Source: Acidihalobacter aeolianus (GTDB lineage Bacteria; Pseudomonadota; Gammaproteobacteria; DSM-5130; Acidihalobacteraceae). From it: a stretch of DNA of 64,000 nt. Below are positions 3,919 through 32,809 of this stretch, in pieces. The first letter of the stretch is position 1. The number at the start of each line of letters is the position of its first letter. Position numbers and translations under genes: made by a program. The stretch covers positions 1 to 64,000 of the forward strand of contig NZ_CP017449.1 in the NCBI RefSeq assembly GCF_001753165.1, written 5' to 3'. The notes beneath the pieces are model-generated. The model was not told where the DNA came from and made no database searches. It saw nothing but the letters and a program-made list of their open reading frames with translations.

Positions 3919-3954
3919 GTCTGAAAAGTACCTTATGAGGGTGATTGGTTGTGA

Positions 3955-4609: not shown

Positions 4610-4634
4610 GGGTATTCGGAATTGAGTGTTGAAC
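4610..4634 (+). repeat. Left terminal inverted repeat of ISL3-type transposon
   Basis: Starts GGGTATTCGGAATTGAGTGT and continues TGAAC. It is paired with 17346-17370 and abuts the left TTTTAATT duplication. Confidence 0.85.
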
Positions 4635-4760
4635 TCAGCAATGAAGATGGAGCTGCCTCTTGTTGAATGTCGGTCGCCGCAGAAGAATCGATGTTCGCAT
4701 CAAGTTGTTGAAAAGTGATTGGCGCAACAGGCTCAGGTCCGTCGATTATCTTTTATTGTA

Positions 4761-4784
4761 GGGTATCCAAAATTAGTGGTTGAA
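4761..4784 (+). repeat. Subterminal copy of the ISL3-type end
   Basis: GGGTATCCAAAATTAGTGGT followed by TGAA resembles the terminal repeat, in the same orientation and 151 bp inside the left end. No matching 8-bp duplication was seen, so it is more likely a second transposase-binding site or an old end than a separate insertion. Confidence 0.5.
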
Positions 4785-5005
4785 GATGACAGGATCTTTC
4801 AACGTAAAGTGGTGCCGTATTTGGTTGAAGCGGCCAAGCTATGAAGGGGTGATTGAGTTATGGACGGCTGCTTTTCATTTGGATGAGTGCGTACTTTCGA
4901 CCCGAAGCCGTCTGTTGTCTTCGCCAGGCCATGATGGCCGGTATCTGAACTAAAGCAGGCGACAATTGATAAGAAGTGTGTATAGGATTGATGACGACTT
5001 AGTCA

Positions 5006-5683
5006 TCAGCCTTCGCAATACTTCCATATGAACTCCCCTGAAAAGTCCATGAACCAGATGAATATCTGATGTACGCGATCGGACATGTGATCAGCCTCTA
5101 CACGGAGATTCTTGTTACGGGGTATATTCCAAATTTGACGTACGACGATACTATCTATGATGTCGTCAGCAACTTTGAAATACCAAAGATGAGCGGTGCT
5201 GCCTCTTGTTATCGATGAATACCTTGCGTCGGGACGACCTGCTCTGTCAGCAAGTGCCATTTTAATCATCTTGCCGCTTTCATCATAGTGAAATGCCAGA
5301 TTGTGACGAACGCGACCGATTATCTGCTCAAACTCCTTGGATTTCGGTGCATTCGGTAGGAATTGGACTAATTCCCAGAAGGATTGTTGCGTTCTATCGT
5401 CACAACGCGTAATGAGCGTCGAGAGTTGTGGGTCGTTCTTGATTTCTTCGATGACTTTAAATCCTTCTTTAAGGTGGGCAAGCTGTATTCTCAAGAAATA
5501 CATCCCGGCACCAATCTTTCGCGCGGTTAACCAACTCGGCCGCTCCTTCTTCCATTCTCCCAGGGACTGATTCGAAAGCGACAGGTCGTTGCAGACCATC
5601 ATCAGTTTGATGACGGAGATTGCACCGGGGCCCCTACCCTGAAATCGTTCAAGGTTTAATGACCGCGTGCTTGTCCTATTCAC
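5006..5683 (-). CDS. HEPN-like hypothetical protein, 225 aa
   Basis: Transposon cargo gene of unknown family. Most of the protein is predicted helical. Near residue 127 it has GRVRHNLAFHYDE, which contains R-H-x4-H, close to the Rx4-6H motif of HEPN ribonucleases and abortive-infection proteins. No nucleotidyltransferase partner is present next to it. It sits at the left edge of the transposon, pointing outward, and AT-rich sequence precedes its start. The HEPN assignment is an inference from one motif. Confidence 0.55.
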   Translation of the reverse strand: MNRTSTRSLNLERFQGRGPGAISVIKLMMVCNDLSLSNQSLGEWKKERPSWLTARKIGAGMYFLRIQLAHLKEGFKVIEEIKNDPQLSTLITRCDDRTQQSFWELVQFLPNAPKSKEFEQIIGRVRHNLAFHYDESGKMIKMALADRAGRPDARYSSITRGSTAHLWYFKVADDIIDSIVVRQIWNIPRNKNLRVEADHMSDRVHQIFIWFMDFSGEFIWKYCEG

Positions 5684-5803
5684 GTTAATGTGGCCCCATC
5701 GTAATAATTAACAGGTAATATAAGTAGAATAAATCTGTCGCGTGAGAAACCGAAGGGTGTTTGACTCGCTTATTAGGGGTATATTTTCAGATTAGTACAT
5801 TAA

Positions 5804-7105
5804 CAGGCTGTTGAAAAACTCCCCAGATTGTCGAAGATGGGGTCTCGGATAAATAAGGACGATAGCGAAGATGCGAGGAGCTGATATTCAGCAGGATGGG
5901 CTGTTCAGCACGGTGAGTCCGGAGCAACGAGTGCCGAAGGATCACCCACTTCGGCCGATCCGGCAGATGGCCGACGAGGCGCTTGCGGCATTGGATGGCG
6001 ACTTCGATGCGCTTTACGCAGGACTGGGGCGCGACTCGATCCCACCGGAGAAGCTGCTGCGGGCCCAGCTGCTGATGGCGCTGTACTCGATTCGAAGCGA
6101 ACGCCAGCTGATGGAGCAGCTCGACTACAACCTGCTGTTTCGTTGGTTCGTGGGTTTTTCGATGGATGACAAGGTCTGGCACCACTCGACGTTCACCAAG
6201 AACCGCGATCGGTTGCTTGAGGGCGAAGTGGCGCACCGCTTTTTTGCCCAGGTGCTCGAGCAGGCCCGGGGTGCGGATCTGTTGTCCAGGGAGCATTTCA
6301 GCGTCGACGGCACCCTGATCGAGGCCCTGGCTTCGCTCAAGAGCTATCGGCCGAAGGATGAAGACGAACCGCCGACGCAGGGCAGCGGCCGCAACCCCTC
6401 GGTGGACTTCCGCGGTGAGCGCCGCACGCGCGACACCCATGCCTCGAAGACCGACCCGCAGGCCTTTCTCTTTCGCAAGAGCCAAGGCACGACCGCCAAG
6501 CTCAGCTACATGGGCCATCTGCTGATGGAGAACCGCCACGGCCTGGTGGTCGATGCGCGGGTCAGTCAGGCGACGGGCCGGGCCGAACGGGAGGTGGGTG
6601 CCGAGATGGTCGAAGCGCTCACAGGCACGCATCGGGTGACCGTGGGCGCGGACAAGAACTACGACACACGGGGCTTCGTGCGGCGGCTTCGCGAGGCGAA
6701 CGCCACGCCACACGTTGCGCAGAACGACACCCGGCGTGCCTCGGCGATCGATGGACGTACCACGGCACGTCCTGGCTACCGCAGCAGCCAGACGATCCGC
6801 AAGCGGATCGAGGAATGCTTTGGGTGGGCGAAGACGATCGGTGGGCTGCGCAAGAGCCGGTTTGTAGGTCCCGAGAAGCTCGACTTTCAGTTCGTGCTGA
6901 CGATGGCCGCCTACAACCTGGGTTCGGATGCGCAATCTGGGGGTGGCGGCATGTTGAAGGCTGTCATTCGAGGGATTACTGCGTCCGAAACACCGATTTC
7001 CAGAACCATTGACCCAACAATTGGCGTAATTCATCCGTATCGGCATTTGCAGACGATCTTTCGCGCCCAAAATGCCGAGAAATCGCGGCCAATTTCAACA
7101 GCCTG
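5804..7105 (+). mobile_element. IS5-family insertion sequence (nested)
   Basis: The ends are CAGGCTGTTGAAA at the left (5804) and its exact complement TTTCAACAGCCTG at the right (to 7105). TTAA flanks both sides (5800-5803 and 7106-7109); a 4-bp YTAR-type duplication is usual for IS5. The 1,302-bp length fits the family. It inserted inside the larger ISL3-type transposon, between the HEPN-like gene and a periplasmic protein gene, so it is younger than the transposon. Confidence 0.85.
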
Positions 7106-7109
7106 TTAA
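5871..7109 (+). CDS. IS5-family DDE transposase
   Basis: 412 aa. The N-terminal DUF772-like region (KLLRAQLLMALYSIRSERQL) is followed by the DDE core: FSVDGTLIEA (first Asp), VGADKNYDTRGFV (second Asp) and KRIEECFGWAKTIGG (Glu). This is complete and probably active. The reading frame runs through the right inverted repeat, and its stop codon TAA lies inside the TTAA target duplication, so the last residues and the stop depend on the insertion site. Confidence 0.9.
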   Translation: MRGADIQQDGLFSTVSPEQRVPKDHPLRPIRQMADEALAALDGDFDALYAGLGRDSIPPEKLLRAQLLMALYSIRSERQLMEQLDYNLLFRWFVGFSMDDKVWHHSTFTKNRDRLLEGEVAHRFFAQVLEQARGADLLSREHFSVDGTLIEALASLKSYRPKDEDEPPTQGSGRNPSVDFRGERRTRDTHASKTDPQAFLFRKSQGTTAKLSYMGHLLMENRHGLVVDARVSQATGRAEREVGAEMVEALTGTHRVTVGADKNYDTRGFVRRLREANATPHVAQNDTRRASAIDGRTTARPGYRSSQTIRKRIEECFGWAKTIGGLRKSRFVGPEKLDFQFVLTMAAYNLGSDAQSGGGGMLKAVIRGITASETPISRTIDPTIGVIHPYRHLQTIFRAQNAEKSRPISTAC

Positions 7110-7153
7110 GAAAAGATCTTCCCTCAATTATTCCATGTTAGGTAGAGCTCTAT

Positions 7154-7618
7154 TTATGGAGTTATGCCTTGCCATTTTCGAACAAGATCACAAGACTGCC
7201 TTATATCAGACCTTAGCTGCTGGGCATCAATGACCATCGCAGCATCTTGGATGCTGCCCATAATCTGGCTGATGTATTGATCGGTCATTTTACATCTATA
7301 ACCAAACAACAATTTTTCTCCCGACAGTTGGTAATAAACCAATCGTTTGTCTTTTGGATTCCCCATGCTGGTATATAGACTGGCAAGCGTGCCCAGAAAA
7401 TTAAGGTGAGTAGTTATGCTTTCTGCTGCTGATGATAGGCCATCTTGAATAGATGGAACTATGTCAGGCCCTTGTAGGCTATAAATATCATGATCATCGA
7501 CTCGCAATTTTTTTACGATCTTGGAAAGAGGGGCATCTTCATATTTGAATGTGCTTGCATGAACTGATGGCACGATGATCACTAGTGAAATCAGCAAAGG
7601 AATATTTCTTATAGACAT
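7154..7618 (-). CDS. Exported hypothetical protein, 154 aa
   Basis: The start at 7618 (MSIRNIPLLISLV) is chosen because it has AGAGGA upstream and gives a clean signal peptide, MSIRNIPLLISLVIIVPSVH then A-S cleavage. A TTG 33 bases upstream is the alternative. The mature part has two Cys (CKMTDQ and SCDLVRKW) that could form a disulfide. No family recognised. Cargo of the large transposon, placed between the IS5 element and hsdR. The 320 bp to its left-hand neighbour hsdR (7619-7942 on the far side) shows nothing else. Confidence 0.6.
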   Translation of the reverse strand: MSIRNIPLLISLVIIVPSVHASTFKYEDAPLSKIVKKLRVDDHDIYSLQGPDIVPSIQDGLSSAAESITTHLNFLGTLASLYTSMGNPKDKRLVYYQLSGEKLLFGYRCKMTDQYISQIMGSIQDAAMVIDAQQLRSDIRQSCDLVRKWQGITP

Positions 7619-7942
7619 ATAGGAAATCCTCTTTGAGAAGGGTGGGTTCAATTGCAGTCAGTTTCTCATATTGAATCGCCACCTCTTATATAGGCACAGG
7701 TGATCCACATTCTGTTTCATAGCGAGACAGGCGACAATCGGAAGCAGTCAATCAAATGTCCAAGGAGTAGATGCTGTGACCGACTCCTTCTGGCCGAAAG
7801 CACCAGTTCAGACAAGCATCCACATAACGGACACTACCAGAATCAGCTATCTCCATCACAGACGTAGTCAACCACATAGTTAGAGATAGGGCCCGGTGAT
7901 GACAGTTGGTATTTCAACCAGTATTTTATGCGGAGACCACCG

Positions 7943-11148
<3,206 letters not shown>

Positions 11149-11149
<1 letters not shown>

Positions 11150-11516
11150 CACACCCCCTCCCACGACGTGGGGGCGCGATTCATCGTACCCGGAATCGCA
11201 TGCGGATTTTCGGGCGTTTGGGGCGCAATGAATTGCGCCCCTACGGGTTGAATGCAGACGATTCCGTGAAAACGATTGGGCATCATCACACACGCATCCA
11301 GGGTCACACCGTTGAATCGTTCCGGCAACGTCATCCATTGCTCGTGCAGGCAGCGTCCGGCCTCGGTCAGCCGTATTTTCATCGTCCGCAACCTGCCCCA
11401 AATAAACACGCCCGGTCCTGCGTGCAGATCGTCACGAAATACGCCCCGGCCTGGGCATAGTCGTAATCCTTCAGGCGCAGGCTGCGGCGATGGTGGTGAT
11501 CGGGGCTGAAGGTCAT
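11149..11516 (-). pseudogene. Truncated, frameshifted RAYT (Y1 transposase-like)
   Basis: Starts MTFSPDHHHRRSLRLKDYDY at 11516, with the REP-associated tyrosine transposase hallmark [16 protein letters not shown]. The frame breaks near 11395 and resumes in another phase with [10 protein letters not shown] and [12 protein letters not shown]. The family signature MPNHxH here reads MPNRFH, so one metal-binding His is lost. Sequence ends abruptly at the hsdR start, lacking the C-terminal catalytic part. It overlaps both neighbours by start/stop codons. Probably a non-functional remnant left when the operon was assembled. Confidence 0.75.
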
Positions 11517-12496
11517 GCGCCAACCTCTTTCAACAACACAAAATGCTCCGCCAGCTTCACCATCAGTTCTTTCTGAGCGGGCTTGCTTTCGGCCACCAGC
11601 AGCGCCAGCGCCACCAGAGTGTTGTCGTTGATCAGCCGCTCCACGGGCCGCGCCAGCAGGTGCTGGTTCAGGCGCAGGTACCACAGGAACAGAAAAGACC
11701 CGGTGCGCTTGTTGCCATCGGCGAAGGGGTGGTTCTTGATCACCAGATACAGCAGATGCGCCGCCCGGCTGGCGACGTTGGGGTAAAACAGCTCGTCGCC
11801 AAAGCCCTGCTCGATGGTGGCCAGGGCGGATGCCAGCCCGTCGCCGCGCACCTGGCCGAACAGCTCGGTGGCCTCGCCTTTGGCGATCAGCTCGGCCTTG
11901 AGCCGGGCAATGGCGGACAGCACGGTATCCAGTTCCAGCGCCTGCATGCCCTGCTGCTTGCCGGTCTGCCCGGTCAGGCTCTGCTCGTCGTAACCCTGCA
12001 ACAGGCTCCAACTGCGGGCGTAGTCGGCAATTACGCCCAGCACCGCTTCGCCTTCGGCGCTGACCAGTTGCTGGTTGGCCAGCGTGCGCGAAAGCAAGTC
12101 CAGCGCCTGCTCGAACTCGATGCCGCGCTCGCGCAGGCGTTGTTGGTTGAGGGTGTAGCCCTCGACCAGGTGCTGGCGCAGCACGCCGGTGGCCCATTGG
12201 CGGAAGCGGGTGGCGCGGGTCGAGTTGACCCGGTAGCCGACGGAGATAATGGCGTCGAGGTTGTAATACTCAACCTGATAGGTTTTGCCATCGGCGGCAG
12301 TTGTTGCATTTTTTGCAACAACTGCGCTTCGCTCCAACTCCTTGGTATCAAGGATGTTTTTCAGGTGGCGGGAGATCACCGACTTGTCGCGCTCGAACAA
12401 CTCGGCCAACTGCTGAAGGCTCAACCAGACCGTTTCGCCCTCCAGCCGCACCTGTACCGGCTGGTCGCCGTACTCGAAAATCACGATCTTATTCAT
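11513..12496 (-). CDS. RhuM-family protein with Fic domain
   Basis: 327 aa, starting MNKIVIFEYGDQPVQV. The N-terminal half is RhuM/virulence-protein type (WLSLQQLAELFERDKSVISR; YYNLDAIISVGYRVNS). The C-terminal half is a Fic/Doc domain with an intact HPFADGNKR motif at 256-264, so AMP or phosphate transfer to a protein target is possible. RhuM-type genes are often found inside type I R-M operons, but their role there is not settled. Coupled to hsdS through a 42-codon remnant, and to the RAYT remnant by ATGA. Frame start taken from the ATG after GGAGGGAACC. Confidence 0.8.
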   Translation of the reverse strand: MNKIVIFEYGDQPVQVRLEGETVWLSLQQLAELFERDKSVISRHLKNILDTKELERSAVVAKNATTAADGKTYQVEYYNLDAIISVGYRVNSTRATRFRQWATGVLRQHLVEGYTLNQQRLRERGIEFEQALDLLSRTLANQQLVSAEGEAVLGVIADYARSWSLLQGYDEQSLTGQTGKQQGMQALELDTVLSAIARLKAELIAKGEATELFGQVRGDGLASALATIEQGFGDELFYPNVASRAAHLLYLVIKNHPFADGNKRTGSFLFLWYLRLNQHLLARPVERLINDNTLVALALLVAESKPAQKELMVKLAEHFVLLKEVGA

Positions 12497-12617
12497 GGGT
12501 TCCCTCCCCGGGTGTTGTGGCGCCTGAACGCCACCGCCCCGCCAGCGCGAGCGTATCCAGCGCGGCGCGCTCACGCACCCAGCTCAGCAGCTCGGGGTTG
12601 ACGGGGAGGCGGGTCAT
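12489..12617 (-). pseudogene. N-terminal remnant of XRE/ImmA-like gene
   Basis: A 42-codon frame beginning [20 protein letters not shown] and then diverging to a short tail before TAA. The opening matches the usual start of XRE-type HTH proteins fused to ImmA/IrrE metallopeptidases (MTR.PVNPELLRWARE pattern). Its ATG overlaps the hsdS stop (ATGA) and its end overlaps the RhuM-Fic start, so it still may act as a translational relay. The assignment is from memory of the family. Confidence 0.5.
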
Positions 12618-13880
12618 GCCACGCGCTCCAGGAATTTCTCGGCATCCTTGATGCGCAGTTCGCCGGAGATCAGCTTGGGCAGCAGGGTGTCGCGGAGTTG
12701 GGAGAGGGTGCGGGATTCATGGATGCCGCCAATAATCTGCCCCACCCATGGCCGAACAATTTTATTAAACGTCCTAGCCAGCGCTTCTGGCGGCAACACC
12801 AAGCTGTAACGAGCCATCTCATTCCAACTCGTCCGTGGCATCTTCGTTCCAGTCGATCCCGCATTTGTGTACTCGACAAACTCATCGCTTGAAATATGGC
12901 AGAGCACAAGACCGAACCATCTTTCCTTCTTGGCGGTGACTACGACAATATCAGTGGAGCAAACACCACTAATTGGCGCGATGCCGACCTTATGGAAATA
13001 GGGGCGTAGCTTCCCGAACAGGATCTCACCTTCTCTAAACTCGAACTTGTTGCTTCCCAGTGAGTCCGCTCGATCCCAATCACTCAGAGCAATGCATCGC
13101 TTAGGCATATGTTCAAGTGCAATGTAAGGTGTATCTGGCTCAATATTATCGGGCTGGATGCTTCGGCGTGGATGCTCTGCCACATCGCCAAGCGTTCCCA
13201 ACTCCCACCCCTCCGGCTTCCCCTCATCATCCAGCCGCTCGGGAAATAGCGCCCAGATGTCGCGGGGCAGGTACGGCTCGCGCCCTTCCATCTTGGCGCG
13301 GACGGGGCCGAAGTCGACGAACCAGTCCTTGAACAGGGCGCGGGCCATGGCCTCCAGGGTCTGGTTGCGGCGGCGGTTGAGTTCGATCTTGTCGTCCAGC
13401 GTGCCGAGGATGTGGGCGATGGAACGCATATCATCAGTGCTGTTTGGAACCGGAATCGGAATCTTCCGTAAGGCACCCAACGGGATGTACTGCTGGGTTG
13501 TTCCGCGCGCTTGCTCGCGAATCAACTGCTGCGCTTGAGGTGTACGCAGGAAGTAGTAAAGCCACTTTCCATCAATCTCTCCCTTGCACTTGAAGAGACC
13601 GATGTTCTTGATGGCGAAGTCCGGATCATCTCTTATTAGGCAAGTTTCACCAACCGTGCCGATCATGGAAATTAGCACGTCCCAACGATCAACCTTGCTA
13701 CGCTTGTTGATCGCGTCGAAGTCTTCTTGCGAGATCAAATAGGCATTGCTTAGGTCAAGCCGTCCCCCGGTGATATGCCGCGAAGTCACTAGGGAACGCC
13801 CATGATCGACCGACTTCGGAGAGTCATGTGTTCCGTCGCGAACTGAGGCACAGAAATCCTCCGCCGCCAATGATTGCCAG

Positions 13881-13891
<11 letters not shown>
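12614..13891 (-). CDS. hsdS: Type I R-M specificity subunit
   Basis: Recognises the DNA target for both modification and restriction. 425 aa with two target-recognition domains (about 1-160 and 215-390), separated by a helical spacer ([20 protein letters not shown], near 165-185) and closed by a second one ([20 protein letters not shown]). The typical IPIPVP edge motif is at the end of the first domain. Overlaps the hsdM stop by 11 bp and the next frame by ATGA. Target sequence cannot be predicted by eye. Confidence 0.92.
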
Positions 13892-15455
<1,564 letters not shown>

Positions 15456-15507
15456 CTGTGATTCCTGTTGTTCATAGGCGGTGAGAATCGGTTTGCCGGC
15501 GGGCGGG

Positions 15508-15760
15508 TCAGTCCAGCACCCCCAGAAATTCCGTGGCCAGCGCCTCCGGACGCACGGCGCGAGTATCCGGGCTGCGGTGCAGCTTGACCAGACCGTAACC
15601 CTCCAGATTGCGCAGCGTGCACGATAGGTTGCTGGCGGCGCGGCCGGACAGCTCGGCCAGATCTCATACCGTGCGCGGCTGTGATCCTGTATAGGTGCAG
15701 CAGTGCCCGGTTCTCGTCTGACAACACGCCGGCCAGCTGGCAGAGCCCGCGAATCGTCAT
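15508..15760 (-). pseudogene. Degraded MarR-like HTH gene
   Basis: Two phases together resemble a winged-helix regulator. An N-terminal part ([20 protein letters not shown]) is followed in another frame by [20 protein letters not shown], then [20 protein letters not shown] and a stop at 15508. The junction contains both a frameshift and an in-frame TGA before DLAEL. It lies between hsdM and the ISL3 transposase, whose stop is 10 bp away. Probably the remains of an HTH antitoxin or operon regulator. Confidence 0.6.
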
Positions 15761-15769
15761 CAGCGTTGT

Positions 15770-17161
15770 TCAGTCGAAATCGCCCGCCTCAAGCTTATGG
15801 GCGAGCGTGGGGAGATAGGGTCCGTATTCGACCCTCCTTTCCTCAATTACAGTCTTGTATCTGCTTTGGCTGGGCGCTTGATACATTGCATCAGACATCG
15901 TGTAACCGAACGTATCCGGAGGCTGAACACGTTTCCTGACTTTCTTGCGGACGGTGGTCCGCGTATCGGCCCGAGCCTCATCATCAAAGAGCAGGCGTGC
16001 CCGGATCACGTCGAAGCTGTAGCCGCGTCCCATGCGATTCATGCCCTTGGCGATGTTGTTGATCGATTCAGTGTAGCCGTTTGAGATCGGATGATCGTAA
16101 TAATTGAATATCTCCGTCCACCAGCTATGCAGAGCGCCTTTGACTTCCCTAAATGCCCAGGCCACATTCGGATTGAGACTGGCTTCCCAATCTTTTGCAG
16201 CTCGCATCGCATCGCTTTTTGTAGGGTGGTTGTAGATGTCGTGAAATGCTTCCTTGGCGGCGTAAGCCATACCCAGATGTGGATGAAGCATGCTCCAATA
16301 ACTCAGCTTCTCCTGCGCGCTACTGCTCAAGTTGTCATGGCGTGAAAGCAGGATAAATCGGTCATTTTTGAGCTTGAGCCTTTCACGAGTAGACAGTTCT
16401 TTCCTGATCTGTTTACGCACCCGTTCAATCGCATCATTGGCCATGCGCACAACATGGAAGCGATCCGCCACGATCATGCGGCCAGGGAATTGATCCTGCG
16501 CGACCTGCCGGTAGACGCTCCACAAATCCATTGTCAGGACCTTGACTCGCCTTTTCTCTGGCAGTGCCTTGAAGTAGATGATGAGATCGGCTTTGTTGCG
16601 GGTCGGGAGCATGTCGAACAGTGCGCGCTTTTCGACGTTGGTAATCATGGCGCGGTATTGACCGATGATCTTGAGTTCATCGATACCCAACACCTCCGGG
16701 GTTTCAAAGACAACGTCCTGTTTCAGGCGGGCCACATAGTCATCGAAGATGTGGCGGACGGTCTTGTCATCGATACCCACTTCTCGGGAGAGTTCGGCGA
16801 AGGTTTTGCGCAGGCAATGTGTCTCGACGTACTTCACCAGCCGTGTTGTCGCTAAACGCTTGTCGTCGATGTCCGGTAGAGGCTCAAACAGCGTCTTGCC
16901 GCAGTTTTTGCATCGAAACCGTCTGCGCTGAATGTCGAGGGCAACGCGCTTGCCGTGTATGGGGGTATCCATGTAGGTCTGAGGCTGAGTGCCATGTCGA
17001 TATAATGACGACGCACACAAGGGGCAGGCGGTCGGCTCGACCATACCTTCCGCCTTGATACGGTAATGGTCGCCGTTCTCCTCAATCTCACGGGCTCTGA
17101 GCTGCGGCAGATTGAGAATGTCGGCCACAGAGGGCGGTAACTCAAGCATGTCTTGAGTCAT
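15770..17161 (-). CDS. ISL3-family transposase
   Basis: 463 aa. N-terminal zinc-ribbon ([12 protein letters not shown] and CKNCGKTLF, about 47-90), HTH ([18 protein letters not shown]), then the DDE-type catalytic region ([45 protein letters not shown]; late [16 protein letters not shown] with the Glu). Length and motifs are complete. It lies 209 bp inside the right transposon end, and no inverted repeat lies on its left side, so it is taken as the transposase of the whole 12.8-kb element. It may also move the 1.8-kb relative at 30694. Confidence 0.92.
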
Positions 17162-17245
17162 CGACAGGCCAGAAGTCTTAATCCATCAAAATTGTGCGCC
17201 TGGTGGCCAGAGTATTGTTTGCATCCAAAATCGAATTGCATCGAC

Positions 17246-17319
17246 CTCAACACTCCATTCCGAGTTTCGGACAAAGAGTGACATTGATGGAATCAACAGT
17301 CAATTCCGAGATGCGGATA
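17246..17319 (-). repeat. Two subterminal copies of the transposon end
   Basis: CTCAACACTCCATTCCGAGT (17246 on) and ATCAACAGTCAATTCCGAGA (17292 on) resemble the terminal repeat at 17346-17370 in the same orientation, spaced 46 and about 53 bp. They look like extra transposase-binding sites at the right end. Confidence 0.55.
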
Positions 17320-17345
17320 CATTGATCAGACCAATCAAGGGCCGG

Positions 17346-17370
17346 GTTCAACAGTGGATTCCGGATACCC
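17346..17370 (-). repeat. Right terminal inverted repeat of ISL3-type transposon
   Basis: On the plus strand it ends AGTGGATTCCGGATACCC at 17370 and is followed by the right copy of TTTTAATT (17371-17378). It pairs with 4610-4634. Confidence 0.85.
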
Positions 17371-27159: not shown

Positions 27160-27305
27160 GATTCTCGTTCTCCCATACACCGAATCCGCGGTGTGCGGTC
27201 GAGCGAAGTGCTCGAAGGTATTGAGCGGCGCGGGGGGATAGGGCGCACACATCCAGGGCCAGGTGTGCACGGGGGTTGCTACACGGAAGGTAATATTTTT
27301 GTAAG

Positions 27306-30404: not shown

Positions 30405-31037
30405 CAATAACGGATATATGCCTAAGTGTGTGACAGGACGAGGCATGGAAGTTTAGAAAACCGGCTACAGATATCCCTCTGAGGCCAAACCCCGAGAGTG
30501 AAAAAAGGAGAGACCAGTGAAAAATCCCAAAGCTAAAAAGGCCGTAATCGCCCTGGCAGGAAGTACGTTGGTCGGACTCGCCGCCGGCGCCGCCATGCCG
30601 GCCTATGCCTCAATGGGGTGTAAGCCGTGCGCGCCGAAGATGTCCATGTCTGGTTCCTGCGCATCGAAAAACCCATGTGCGGCTAAGAAAATGGGGTATC
30701 CGGATTTGAGTGTGTTTTGTTCGCCCCGATTCAGCTACCTGCAGGATCTTGAATAATGTGTTTCTGGTGGCGACCTAGTGGGTTCCGAAGTCATGTCCGC
30801 TTTCCGATCAGGTTTATTTCCGCTGTCGACCCCAACCCGCCATTCGGGACCGCAAAGCTTTAACGGCAGATGTACAATTGCGAAGCAGCCGCACGACCCT
30901 GCTTCTAAGAGCATGGCGCCCACGTTCGCGGTCATTGTGGAGACCGTCAAACAGCTAGTCATCTGAAGTCAGCTACTGATCAGCATGGATCAATGCGACT
31001 GGACACCTTCCTCAATGAAGTGGCAGTGGCAGACGAA

Positions 31038-31409
31038 TTAGTGGCCTTGATCTTGGTGTAACCTCTTCTCCAGCACCGTATACAGATTAATTGCGCCGGT
31101 CATAACGTCACTAAGTGGATGCTGCCTACAGTAATTATCCATCCAATAGTAGGCTTGAGCGGGCGCTCCCAATTCACTCAATGGCTCAAATTTTGGTAAC
31201 TTATTAATGTTGTCATATGCCGCCTGTGTCAGAGCAATCCCATTCATCGCGCCTGCCAGATAAAAGGCAGCGATTGCTTGAAGCCCTTGGTCACTAGATG
31301 TTCTGTAATTTATCCAATCTGCGCAGTTCATAATTGGCATCTCTTCTATAGCCGCCGCTGATCCTGTAGCGGAAAGCAGAATCAGGCCGACTAACCATGT
31401 TTTCCACAT
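31038..31409 (-). CDS. Exported hypothetical protein, 123 aa (element cargo)
   Basis: Start at 31409 (MWKTWLVGLILLSATGSAAA) after GAGGTGG gives a good signal peptide. The mature part has two Cys (MNCADWINY and DNYCRQHPLSDV), with the WMDNYCRQHP pattern reminiscent of HdeA/Rap1a-like small periplasmic proteins. Passenger of the 1.8-kb element, apparently intact. Confidence 0.6.
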   Translation of the reverse strand: MWKTWLVGLILLSATGSAAAIEEMPIMNCADWINYRTSSDQGLQAIAAFYLAGAMNGIALTQAAYDNINKLPKFEPLSELGAPAQAYYWMDNYCRQHPLSDVMTGAINLYTVLEKRLHQDQGH

Positions 31410-31452
31410 AAACCACCTCATCTGTGACCTTGCTTGAACTGTGGACTCGTAT

Positions 31453-31617
31453 TTACGCCAGTGTCCAGTCGATCAACGTGTCTGCGCAGTCATATTGACC
31501 CGCGATGATCAGCATAGTGAATGCTGCGTCCACTTCGTTGCGTTTTTCCAATTTGGCAGAAATGTCTTTGCGGTTCGGAGGAGGTAGAATCCCATCATGG
31601 CTATGATTTGGTATCAA
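31453..31617 (-). CDS. Small protein, 54 aa (element cargo)
   Basis: TTG start; GGAGG lies 11-12 bases upstream. The product, beginning MIPNHSHDGILPPPNRKDIS, is polar and ends DTLIDWTLA. The opening HDGILPP resembles the start of toxin-antitoxin-associated DUF6932-type proteins, so it may be a short or truncated relative. Low certainty because of the start codon. Confidence 0.4.
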   Translation of the reverse strand: MIPNHSHDGILPPPNRKDISAKLEKRNEVDAAFTMLIIAGQYDCADTLIDWTLA

Positions 31618-31741
31618 GGCTTAGTGTTTCCTCCAAAATGCATAACATAACTATGAAAGTAACCGAAATCGGAGCGAGGATCGCGGAGTGACTCCGACAT
31701 GCGCAGCATGTTGGACGTCCGGTTGACCGCAGAGTTAGGGT

Positions 31742-31981
31742 TTAGAGATCGGCAACCGAGCATGCGGTGGATTTTCCATCAATAATTTGTTGCCCTAAAA
31801 CATAACAATGGGCTACAGCTTCCTCTCTGGTTTCATATGTATCCGCGCTACTAAAATTCCTTTCGCGTGAATCGTTGCCAGAATGTCGCATGATATAAAG
31901 GTTTAGAGACCAACATCTAGAGTCGGTTAGCTTCAAAGGGGCGGGTCTAATTACATAACCCTTGTATTCGCGCATATCCAT
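31742..31981 (-). CDS. Small hypothetical protein, 79 aa (element cargo)
   Basis: Starts MDMREYKGYVIRPAPLKL after AGGAAA. The pattern YKGYVIRP..., SLNLYIMRH and YETREEAVAHCYVLGQQIID matches a small conserved family known from many proteobacteria, without known function (CV_2116-like in my memory). Passenger of the 1.8-kb element. Confidence 0.6.
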   Translation of the reverse strand: MDMREYKGYVIRPAPLKLTDSRCWSLNLYIMRHSGNDSRERNFSSADTYETREEAVAHCYVLGQQIIDGKSTACSVADL

Positions 31982-32809
31982 GATTGGTTTCCTATCTCAG
32001 CGAAGAGGGAATAGCCCTAACAGTAAATACAAAGGCCCGCAATAACAAGTTTAACCAACTGATTTGTCGGTATTTTACACTCTATTTATATGTATGTATG
32101 TATGAAAACGTGGGCTCGACGCTTACGCCAATCATGAGTAGGGTTAACAACGGGTTCTTACTGCATTCCTGCCTTCCAACAGCTCGATATCGAAGGAGCA
32201 TGAACGGCTGGTTGTGGCCGATCTGAGACAATGATCGAGCAGCTAACCTTAACTGTGAGAAGCGGACATTCCGGGATAGGCTGACACCTGACACTACCCG
32301 CCATAGGTGCGAACATTATGGGCGCGATGGGCTTCTACCACACGCACGATGTCTTTTCGATGGGTAGCCAGTGCCACGGAAGGCTTCATGAGGTTTTCCT
32401 GATTAGGCTCCGAACCCATCGTTGTGAACCGAACAGATCAACGCAACACCCTAATCCGATTTTACTATCGGCAGACAATTACCTCCAGCATCCGGTCAAA
32501 ACACACCCAAATCCGGATACCCAGAAAATGGGCGGCAAGCAGGGATGCGCCAGCAAGAATCCTTGTGCGTCAAAAGGGATGAAGCACAACAAATCCTCTG
32601 GTATGTAGATCGCTATATACCATGGCTGCCATCGCAAAAGGCGAACAGCCCTCATATTGATTGAAAGCCTTGCCCTCGCTGAATCATGCGGCGTGGGTAA
32701 GGCAATGCTAGTGCCGCACGCAATCCTTGTCCCCTGATGTCTCCCAATGCCGTTAGGTGCTACTACCTGACGGTTGCCTGGCCGTATCCAGGATGTGGAG
32801 ATGATGATC

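Follow-up and report, generated by a model that had tools for sequence, protein, structure and literature searches.

The mobile insertion cassettes of Bacillus cereus consist of a passenger gene between IS231 ends, and by definition this passenger gene is dispensable for transposition. MITEs are defined as short elements that have no coding content and usually exist in many copies. As outlined in accounts of B. cereus, mobile insertion cassettes depend on an IS for their mobility and have no transposase of their own (PMC3281130, PMC4133298). ISL3 transposons with passenger genes are also on record: ISPpu12a, in the part of PMC4133298 that treats it, and ISPst2, in the corresponding part of PMC6305408, where the ends are given as beginning GGGTATCCGGA or GGGTATACGGA and as accompanied by 8-bp repeats. 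With both kinds of system already known, the 1,829-bp unit described here adds an ISL3-ended case.

Like the mobile insertion cassettes outlined in those accounts (PMC3281130, PMC4133298), the unit would be mobile DNA that lacks its own transposase and depends on an IS; it differs in its ISL3-type ends, and its movement in trans is putative. It has IS-type ends without a transposase, and the predicted 79-aa CV_2116 and 127-aa ORFs would serve as its passenger genes. It shares with ISPpu12a and ISPst2 the ISL3 family and the presence of extra genes, but the transposase kept in those two, as far as their descriptions go, is deleted here. Classification as a MITE was rejected: the unit is likewise non-autonomous with IS-derived ends, but it is longer (1,829 bp), single-copy and ORF-bearing. 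Integron gene cassettes carry attC and are inserted by an integrase, whereas the inverted ends and the 8-bp target duplication (TSD) of the unit point to transposition. Its ends are of ISL3 type (one agrees at 26/26 positions with an end belonging to a transposon that encodes an ISL3 transposase) and its duplication has the 8-bp length (8/8), but it has no DDE transposase of its own, so we class it as an ISL3 derivative and not a full member. No title or abstract opening among the literature matches listed describes a gene-carrying, transposase-less ISL3 cassette. Against the known cassettes and ISL3 passenger transposons, single-gene versions would thus be new, if proved mobile.

The unit and the interrupted gene

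The host, Acidihalobacter DSM 14174, later renamed A. aeolianus, is a halotolerant acidophile that oxidises iron and sulfur. We analysed a window of 64,000 bp, bases 1-64,000 of a 162,484-bp plasmid contig; the other contig has 3,363,634 bp. The strain and its plasmid, pABPV6, are described in PMC5255921.

An initial annotation had reported a 1,829-bp ISL3-type unit with its own cargo, near-perfect 26-bp ends, an exact duplication and no transposase, inserted in a Cys-rich gene. All of this held. The two ends are complementary at 25 of 26 positions, AGAAAATG flanks them 8/8 on both sides, and tblastn with four ISL3 transposase queries found no transposase in the unit at E 0.05. The unit is single-copy in the host genome and its G+C content is 0.48, compared with 0.58 for the window.

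Table 1. Features of the unit and of transposase-less elements with related ends (positions are those of the window unless a locus is named).
Feature	Location	Strand	Remarks
Transposase-less ISL3-type element, 1,829 bp	30694-32522	.	ends, TSD, no transposase match
Left terminal inverted repeat, 26 bp	30694-30719	+	25/26 to right end
Right terminal inverted repeat, 26 bp	32497-32522	-	26/26 to one end of the G001 transposon
TSD left copy, AGAAAATG	30686-30693	.	8/8 vs right copy
TSD right copy, AGAAAATG	32523-32530	.	8/8 vs left copy
Subterminal motif ATGTCCGCTT, left copy	30793-30802	+	
Subterminal motif ATGTCCGCTT, right copy	32260-32269	-	inverted
5' part of interrupted Cys-rich gene	30517-30693	+	59 codons, GTG start, signal-like N-terminus
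3' part of interrupted gene	32531-32608	+	25 codons and stop
Predicted cargo ORF, 127 aa	31038-31421	-	signal-peptide-like N-terminus (by eye), near-orphan
Predicted cargo ORF, 79 aa	31742-31981	-	CV_2116 domain protein (NF046097, E 2.8e-27)
mntA remnant, 41 codons	32294-32419	-	mntA is the nucleotidyltransferase partner of hepT
Left-end segment	30694-30846		unit positions 1-153, 94% to G001 transposon left end
Segment 3'-adjacent to transposase gene in G001	32215-32305		unit positions 1522-1612, 90%
Right-end segment	32305-32522		unit positions 1612-1829, 95% to G001 right end; begins at deletion joint
Element in MAG titled Thermaceae, 2,346 bp	L074: 194-2539		NotI-type endonuclease and D12 methyltransferase; exact TSD
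Element in viral contig, 577 bp	L095		phage-type DNA methyltransferase; exact TSD
Element in Mycetohabitans plasmid, 586 bp	L136		exact TSD
Element in Acidovorax plasmid, 317 bp	L137		exact TSD
Element in viral contig, 819 bp	L141		exact TSD
Element in viral contig, 490 bp	L142		DUF7574 ORF; exact TSD
Element in viral contig, 296 bp	L144		exact TSD

As a control, we counted all pairs in the window that have an exact 8-bp flanking repeat and lie 100-15,000 bp apart. Ends matching at 21 or more of 26 positions occurred in two pairs only, the unit (25) and a 12.8-kb transposon (21), and the next-best flanked pair reached 17/26. No further copy of the ends with up to three mismatches is present in the window (chance expectation 0.00). 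That a chance pair of repeats or an assembly artefact explains the unit is extremely improbable: it is an outlier among all flanked pairs, its ends also bound a transposon in another genome (G001), and the plasmid is circular and was assembled from hybrid data at about 32-fold coverage (PMC5255921). No support for either explanation was found; as published, the chromosome has a single gap in its assembly (PMC5255921). Near its ends, the unit carries inverted copies of a subterminal motif. The longer form of this motif, AATGTCCGCTTYY, was considered as a dispersed genomic repeat and rejected, as its three occurrences in five genomes of the family all lie in end regions of this type of transposon.

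Joining the flanks minus one copy of the duplication restores, as the annotation had predicted, an open 84-codon frame that runs from GTG to TAG. Intact homologues, whose absence would have spoken against the annotation, align with it. On the chromosome of the host (G000) the homologue is uninterrupted (78% across the aligned stretch); continuous frames are also present in G002 (75%), G001 (59%) and G003 (42%), and none was found in G004. Of the four other family genomes, three therefore have a homologue, and one of the 90 remaining genomes gave a weak match to the joined protein. All four homologues have ATG at the aligned start or one codon earlier; across the five-row alignment, the signal-like N-terminus is kept and two Cys residues are invariant. 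Related plasmids had been proposed as the place to look for the intact 84-aa gene. PLSDB holds no match to the unit or its flanks, so no related plasmid, and none to the joined protein; the homologues were found in genomes instead.

Comparing the joined gene with the chromosomal homologue, we find a single 3-base gap upstream; the match runs across the insertion point without interruption. Differences by codon position number 13, 9 and 50 over the 84 codons. The excess at the third position is present in both halves (8, 5 and 36 over 59 codons; 5, 4 and 14 over 25 codons), which argues that the gene was long under selection and shows no decay since it was cut. The unit thus interrupts a second, long-selected copy of the gene, neither part of which shows decay.

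Parentage, cargo and origin of the unit

We searched 95 genomes, host included, for the DNA of the unit, and some part of it matched in five. In the 94 non-host genomes only pieces matched: G001, G004 and G011 share end segments with the unit, and G002 shares an internal stretch of 128-141 bp. The congener G001 has a 5,303-bp transposon with ends 24-26/26 to those of the unit. Its genes encode an ISL3 transposase, HepT, an MntA-type nucleotidyltransferase and three further proteins, two of which match PADLOC models PDC-M48B (PDC standing for 'phage defence candidate').

Three blocks of the unit are collinear with this transposon, at 94, 90 and 95%. The second and third blocks are adjacent in the unit and 2,069 bp apart in G001. 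Between them, G001 has the complete transposase gene, hepT and the 3' portion of mntA, a gene whose first 41 codons the unit retains. Unit positions from about 154 to 1521 have no DNA match in the G001 transposon. The two elements are alike in their ends and terminal segments (94-95%) and unlike in that G001's has the transposase, hepT, mntA and other cargo. Judged from the collinear blocks, the unit is a deletion derivative of a G001-like 5.3-kb ISL3 transposon, with one 2.07-kb deletion and different cargo in the slot. The G001 transposon has no matching TSD (flanks ATTCTAAA / CGAAAAAA), so this model parent may itself be rearranged. The unit offers a clean case of a cargo transposon that loses its enzyme and keeps its ends and passengers, with the parent identifiable in a sister species.

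Three small minus-strand genes, one with an exported product, had been assigned to the unit. That count is generous: the 127-aa and 79-aa ORFs do look like genes, and the ORF at 32294-32419 is the start of a broken mntA. The 127-aa product has a signal-like N-terminus, as judged by eye. Its ORF gave one weak match outside its own genome among 274 genomes searched, distant matches on four Variovorax plasmids (E 2e-4) and no PDB sequence match; AlphaFold, run on the mature part as a single sequence, gives an all-helical model of poor quality (mean pLDDT 55). The 79-aa ORF has a sub-threshold match to HlyU. Neither ORF matched anything above the Pfam cut-off or in PHROGs or PADLOC, and two ORFs of 54 and 49 aa that lie between them have no family match. 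Window positions 32027-32222 are 71-77% similar to chromosomal loci, at which the cargo proteins have no significant match.

How the unit came to this site can be read in more than one way. We lean, with modest confidence, towards a mobile insertion cassette with ISL3 ends, in which the deletion would have preceded insertion and the transposase would have acted in trans. An autonomous G001-like ISL3 transposon would have lost about 2.07 kb (transposase, hepT, 3' mntA) in a single deletion, and the deleted unit would carry other genes in the slot of G001's metallo-hydrolase-fold genes. An earlier-resident G001-type transposon or an incoming replicon would have provided the cognate ISL3 transposase in trans; with this enzyme bound to its 26-bp ends, the unit would insert into the plasmid copy of the Cys-rich protein gene, duplicating 8 bp. 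Movement in trans as such seems somewhat the likelier course. Seven other transposase-less elements with related ends and exact 8-bp TSDs (Table 1) serve as class evidence for a cassette.

The unit is single-copy in the genome, so the deletion could have followed the insertion. The 94 other genomes match in pieces only and thus offer no direct proof that the deleted form has moved. A full G001-like transposon may have inserted with its own transposase and then suffered the 2.07-kb deletion, leaving a dead remnant that never moved in trans. We consider this course possible but rather doubtful. It agrees with the single copy, and the unit, unlike the seven others, keeps the start of mntA and the 3' flank of the transposase gene, as decay in place would leave them; moreover, at locus L086 the ends are intact and the TSD is exact, and the transposase that they enclose is broken. 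However, the gene halves and the TSD are undecayed, which leaves little time for the deletion, and compact single-ORF units are not readily expected from transposons decaying in place. The seven relatives, in which no remnants are detectable, show that such cassettes exist.

Transposase identity and end likeness

For the cassette reading, the enzyme has to be sought outside the unit, and the ISL3 transposase encoded by the plasmid's own 12.8-kb transposon had been suggested as the one that mobilised it. We compared ends and transposases of 14 sampled ISL3 transposons (91 pairs). The best end match to the unit is G001, at 26/26. The unit's ends are also 24-25/26 to those of seven other transposons, six in MAGs and one in a Rhodanobacter plasmid, with transposases 61-64% identical to that of G001. 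The ends of the 12.8-kb transposon had been called related to those of the unit; a family-level likeness stands, but it amounts to no more than 15-18/26, and the transposase is 41% identical to G001's. An 8.2-kb transposon on the host chromosome gives 13/26 and 38.5%.

Over the 91 pairs, transposase identity and end likeness are linked in a real but loose way (Spearman 0.54). Pairs with 30-45% identical transposases (n=25) have 13-20/26 end positions in common (median 16), pairs at 55-65% (n=32) have 13-24/26, and those above 65% (n=34) have 13-26/26. With so loose a link, end likeness alone is no proof of the acting enzyme. The start GGGTATCCGGA is also that of ISPst2, in the part of its description dealing with the ends (PMC6305408), and is thus a feature of the group.

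It is very unlikely that the same-plasmid transposase moved the unit in trans. Both are of the ISL3 family and in close proximity, over its first 12 bp the unit has a single mismatch to one end of the 12.8-kb transposon, and with the loose link distant transposases are not strictly out. But the full end agrees at best at 18/26, which lies within the family background of the 25 pairs at 30-45% identity, and the enzyme is only 41% identical to the transposase that has matching ends. The host genome holds no transposase closer than 42%, so the enzyme most likely came from elsewhere or has since been lost.

The 12.8-kb transposon itself (window 4610-17370, TSD TTTTAATT) carries the type I restriction-modification genes HsdR, HsdS and HsdM, with the transposase at one end.

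Related elements and the cargo of ISL3 transposons

A search for further copies of the ends around unrelated small genes had been proposed, and scans for related ends recovered the seven transposase-less, TSD-flanked elements of Table 1. A genome-contig scan by exact end pattern gave 23 stretches, two viral scans gave 3 and 9, overlapping, and among plasmids 26 records had an end match, which in seven spans 80% or more of the 30-base query; six of the 26 were inspected. None of the seven elements matched the four transposase queries at E 0.05, and the same queries did match in L086, L100 and L145. Their own two ends agree at 15-22/26, L136 being the weakest. A random-anchor control gave no pair out of 1,400 with an exact TSD and at least 15/26. 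The unrestricted window count has 16 chance-like pairs at 15-17/26, so the case for L136 draws in addition on its GGATTTGA core and the known end opposite.

Six of the seven are shorter than 850 bp, and four of these short elements are filled to 72-95% by a single ORF. Another Mycetohabitans species also has the 586-bp L136 element (95.6% identity). Among 24 viral loci related to the L095 methyltransferase (2-kb flanks, some shorter), the ends are present at one, L095's own contig; the gene is thus enclosed by the ends and does not always travel with them. One 20-base exact pattern for the empty site of L095 had no occurrence in viral contigs. No related transposase was found in the MAG of L074 or the virus record of L095, so the supposed helper is not seen beside these cassettes. 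Within the class such ends are rare: of 321 genomes drawn, 2 have the pattern, and one of these is the host.

We tentatively suggest that ISL3 transposases might serve a dispersed pool of tiny transposase-less cassettes among plasmids, chromosomes and phages, an integron-like shuttle of which the window unit could be a larger member. Just as tentatively, several cassettes of this pool may each pack one ORF of about 80-180 codons between the ends.

Other candidates were set aside. L099 (17/26, no TSD) and L100 (no TSD, a transposase fragment) were dropped; L072, L087, L089 and L098 lack a matching TSD, although each has both ends and a transposase. No partner end was found for L138, none with a TSD for L143, L146 and L094, and no far end for a Pandoraea transposon; for L096, the partner end was searched inside its short locus only. 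The L074 element consists of just the NotI-type endonuclease and methyltransferase genes, a possible mobile restriction cassette. L145 (7947-9690) is an ISL3 IS in a viral contig with an open transposase frame and an exact TSD.

We also checked the cargo of 18 transposase-bearing ISL3 transposons with both ends located, which were chosen by likeness of ends or transposase and are not a random sample. By family match or record annotation, 13 of the 18 carry restriction, toxin-antitoxin-like (nucleotidyltransferase/HEPN, AbiEii, Fic) or defence-candidate genes. The 8.2-kb transposon of the host chromosome (L054:8731-16923, TSD TATAAAAA) has the type I restriction genes HsdM, HsdS and HsdR, and a 4.0-kb one in G004 (L053:4625-8635, TSD ATTTGATT) has an Eco57I-type methylase and a BsuBI/PstI endonuclease. 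An 8.9-kb transposon in a Burkholderiales MAG (L097:494-9416, TSD 7/8) carries a Fic gene and a Wadjet/MksBEF-like operon, so called from DUF3584, MksE, DUF7281 and a weak PADLOC JetB match. The plasmid transposons L130, L131, L133, L134 and L135, with exact TSDs, have annotated nucleotidyltransferase/DUF86, N-6 methylase, Fic and AbiEii-type genes; L133 and L134 come from two genera and differ in their TSDs but carry the same set of genes. Mercury-resistance cargo also lies between ISL3 ends, as merR, merT, merP and merA in a Dyella plasmid transposon annotated ISStma11 (L139:7001-11621, exact TSD). As the wider set of transposase-less elements suggests, single genes and a restriction system are packaged between ISL3 ends for movement, also into phages, and ISL3 transposons and cassettes may be one route of defence-gene spread.

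Elsewhere in the window, a TGGTATAATACTATT-like motif occurs at 27301, 33735, 34331 and 45963, and inverted at 3948. Several copies stand directly before ORF starts, and the motif is possibly a shared plasmid operator. Positions 1182-1565 hold degenerate, ATATGTGTAATNGGTACCCCC-like direct repeats with 77-162 bp spacing, which are iteron-like.
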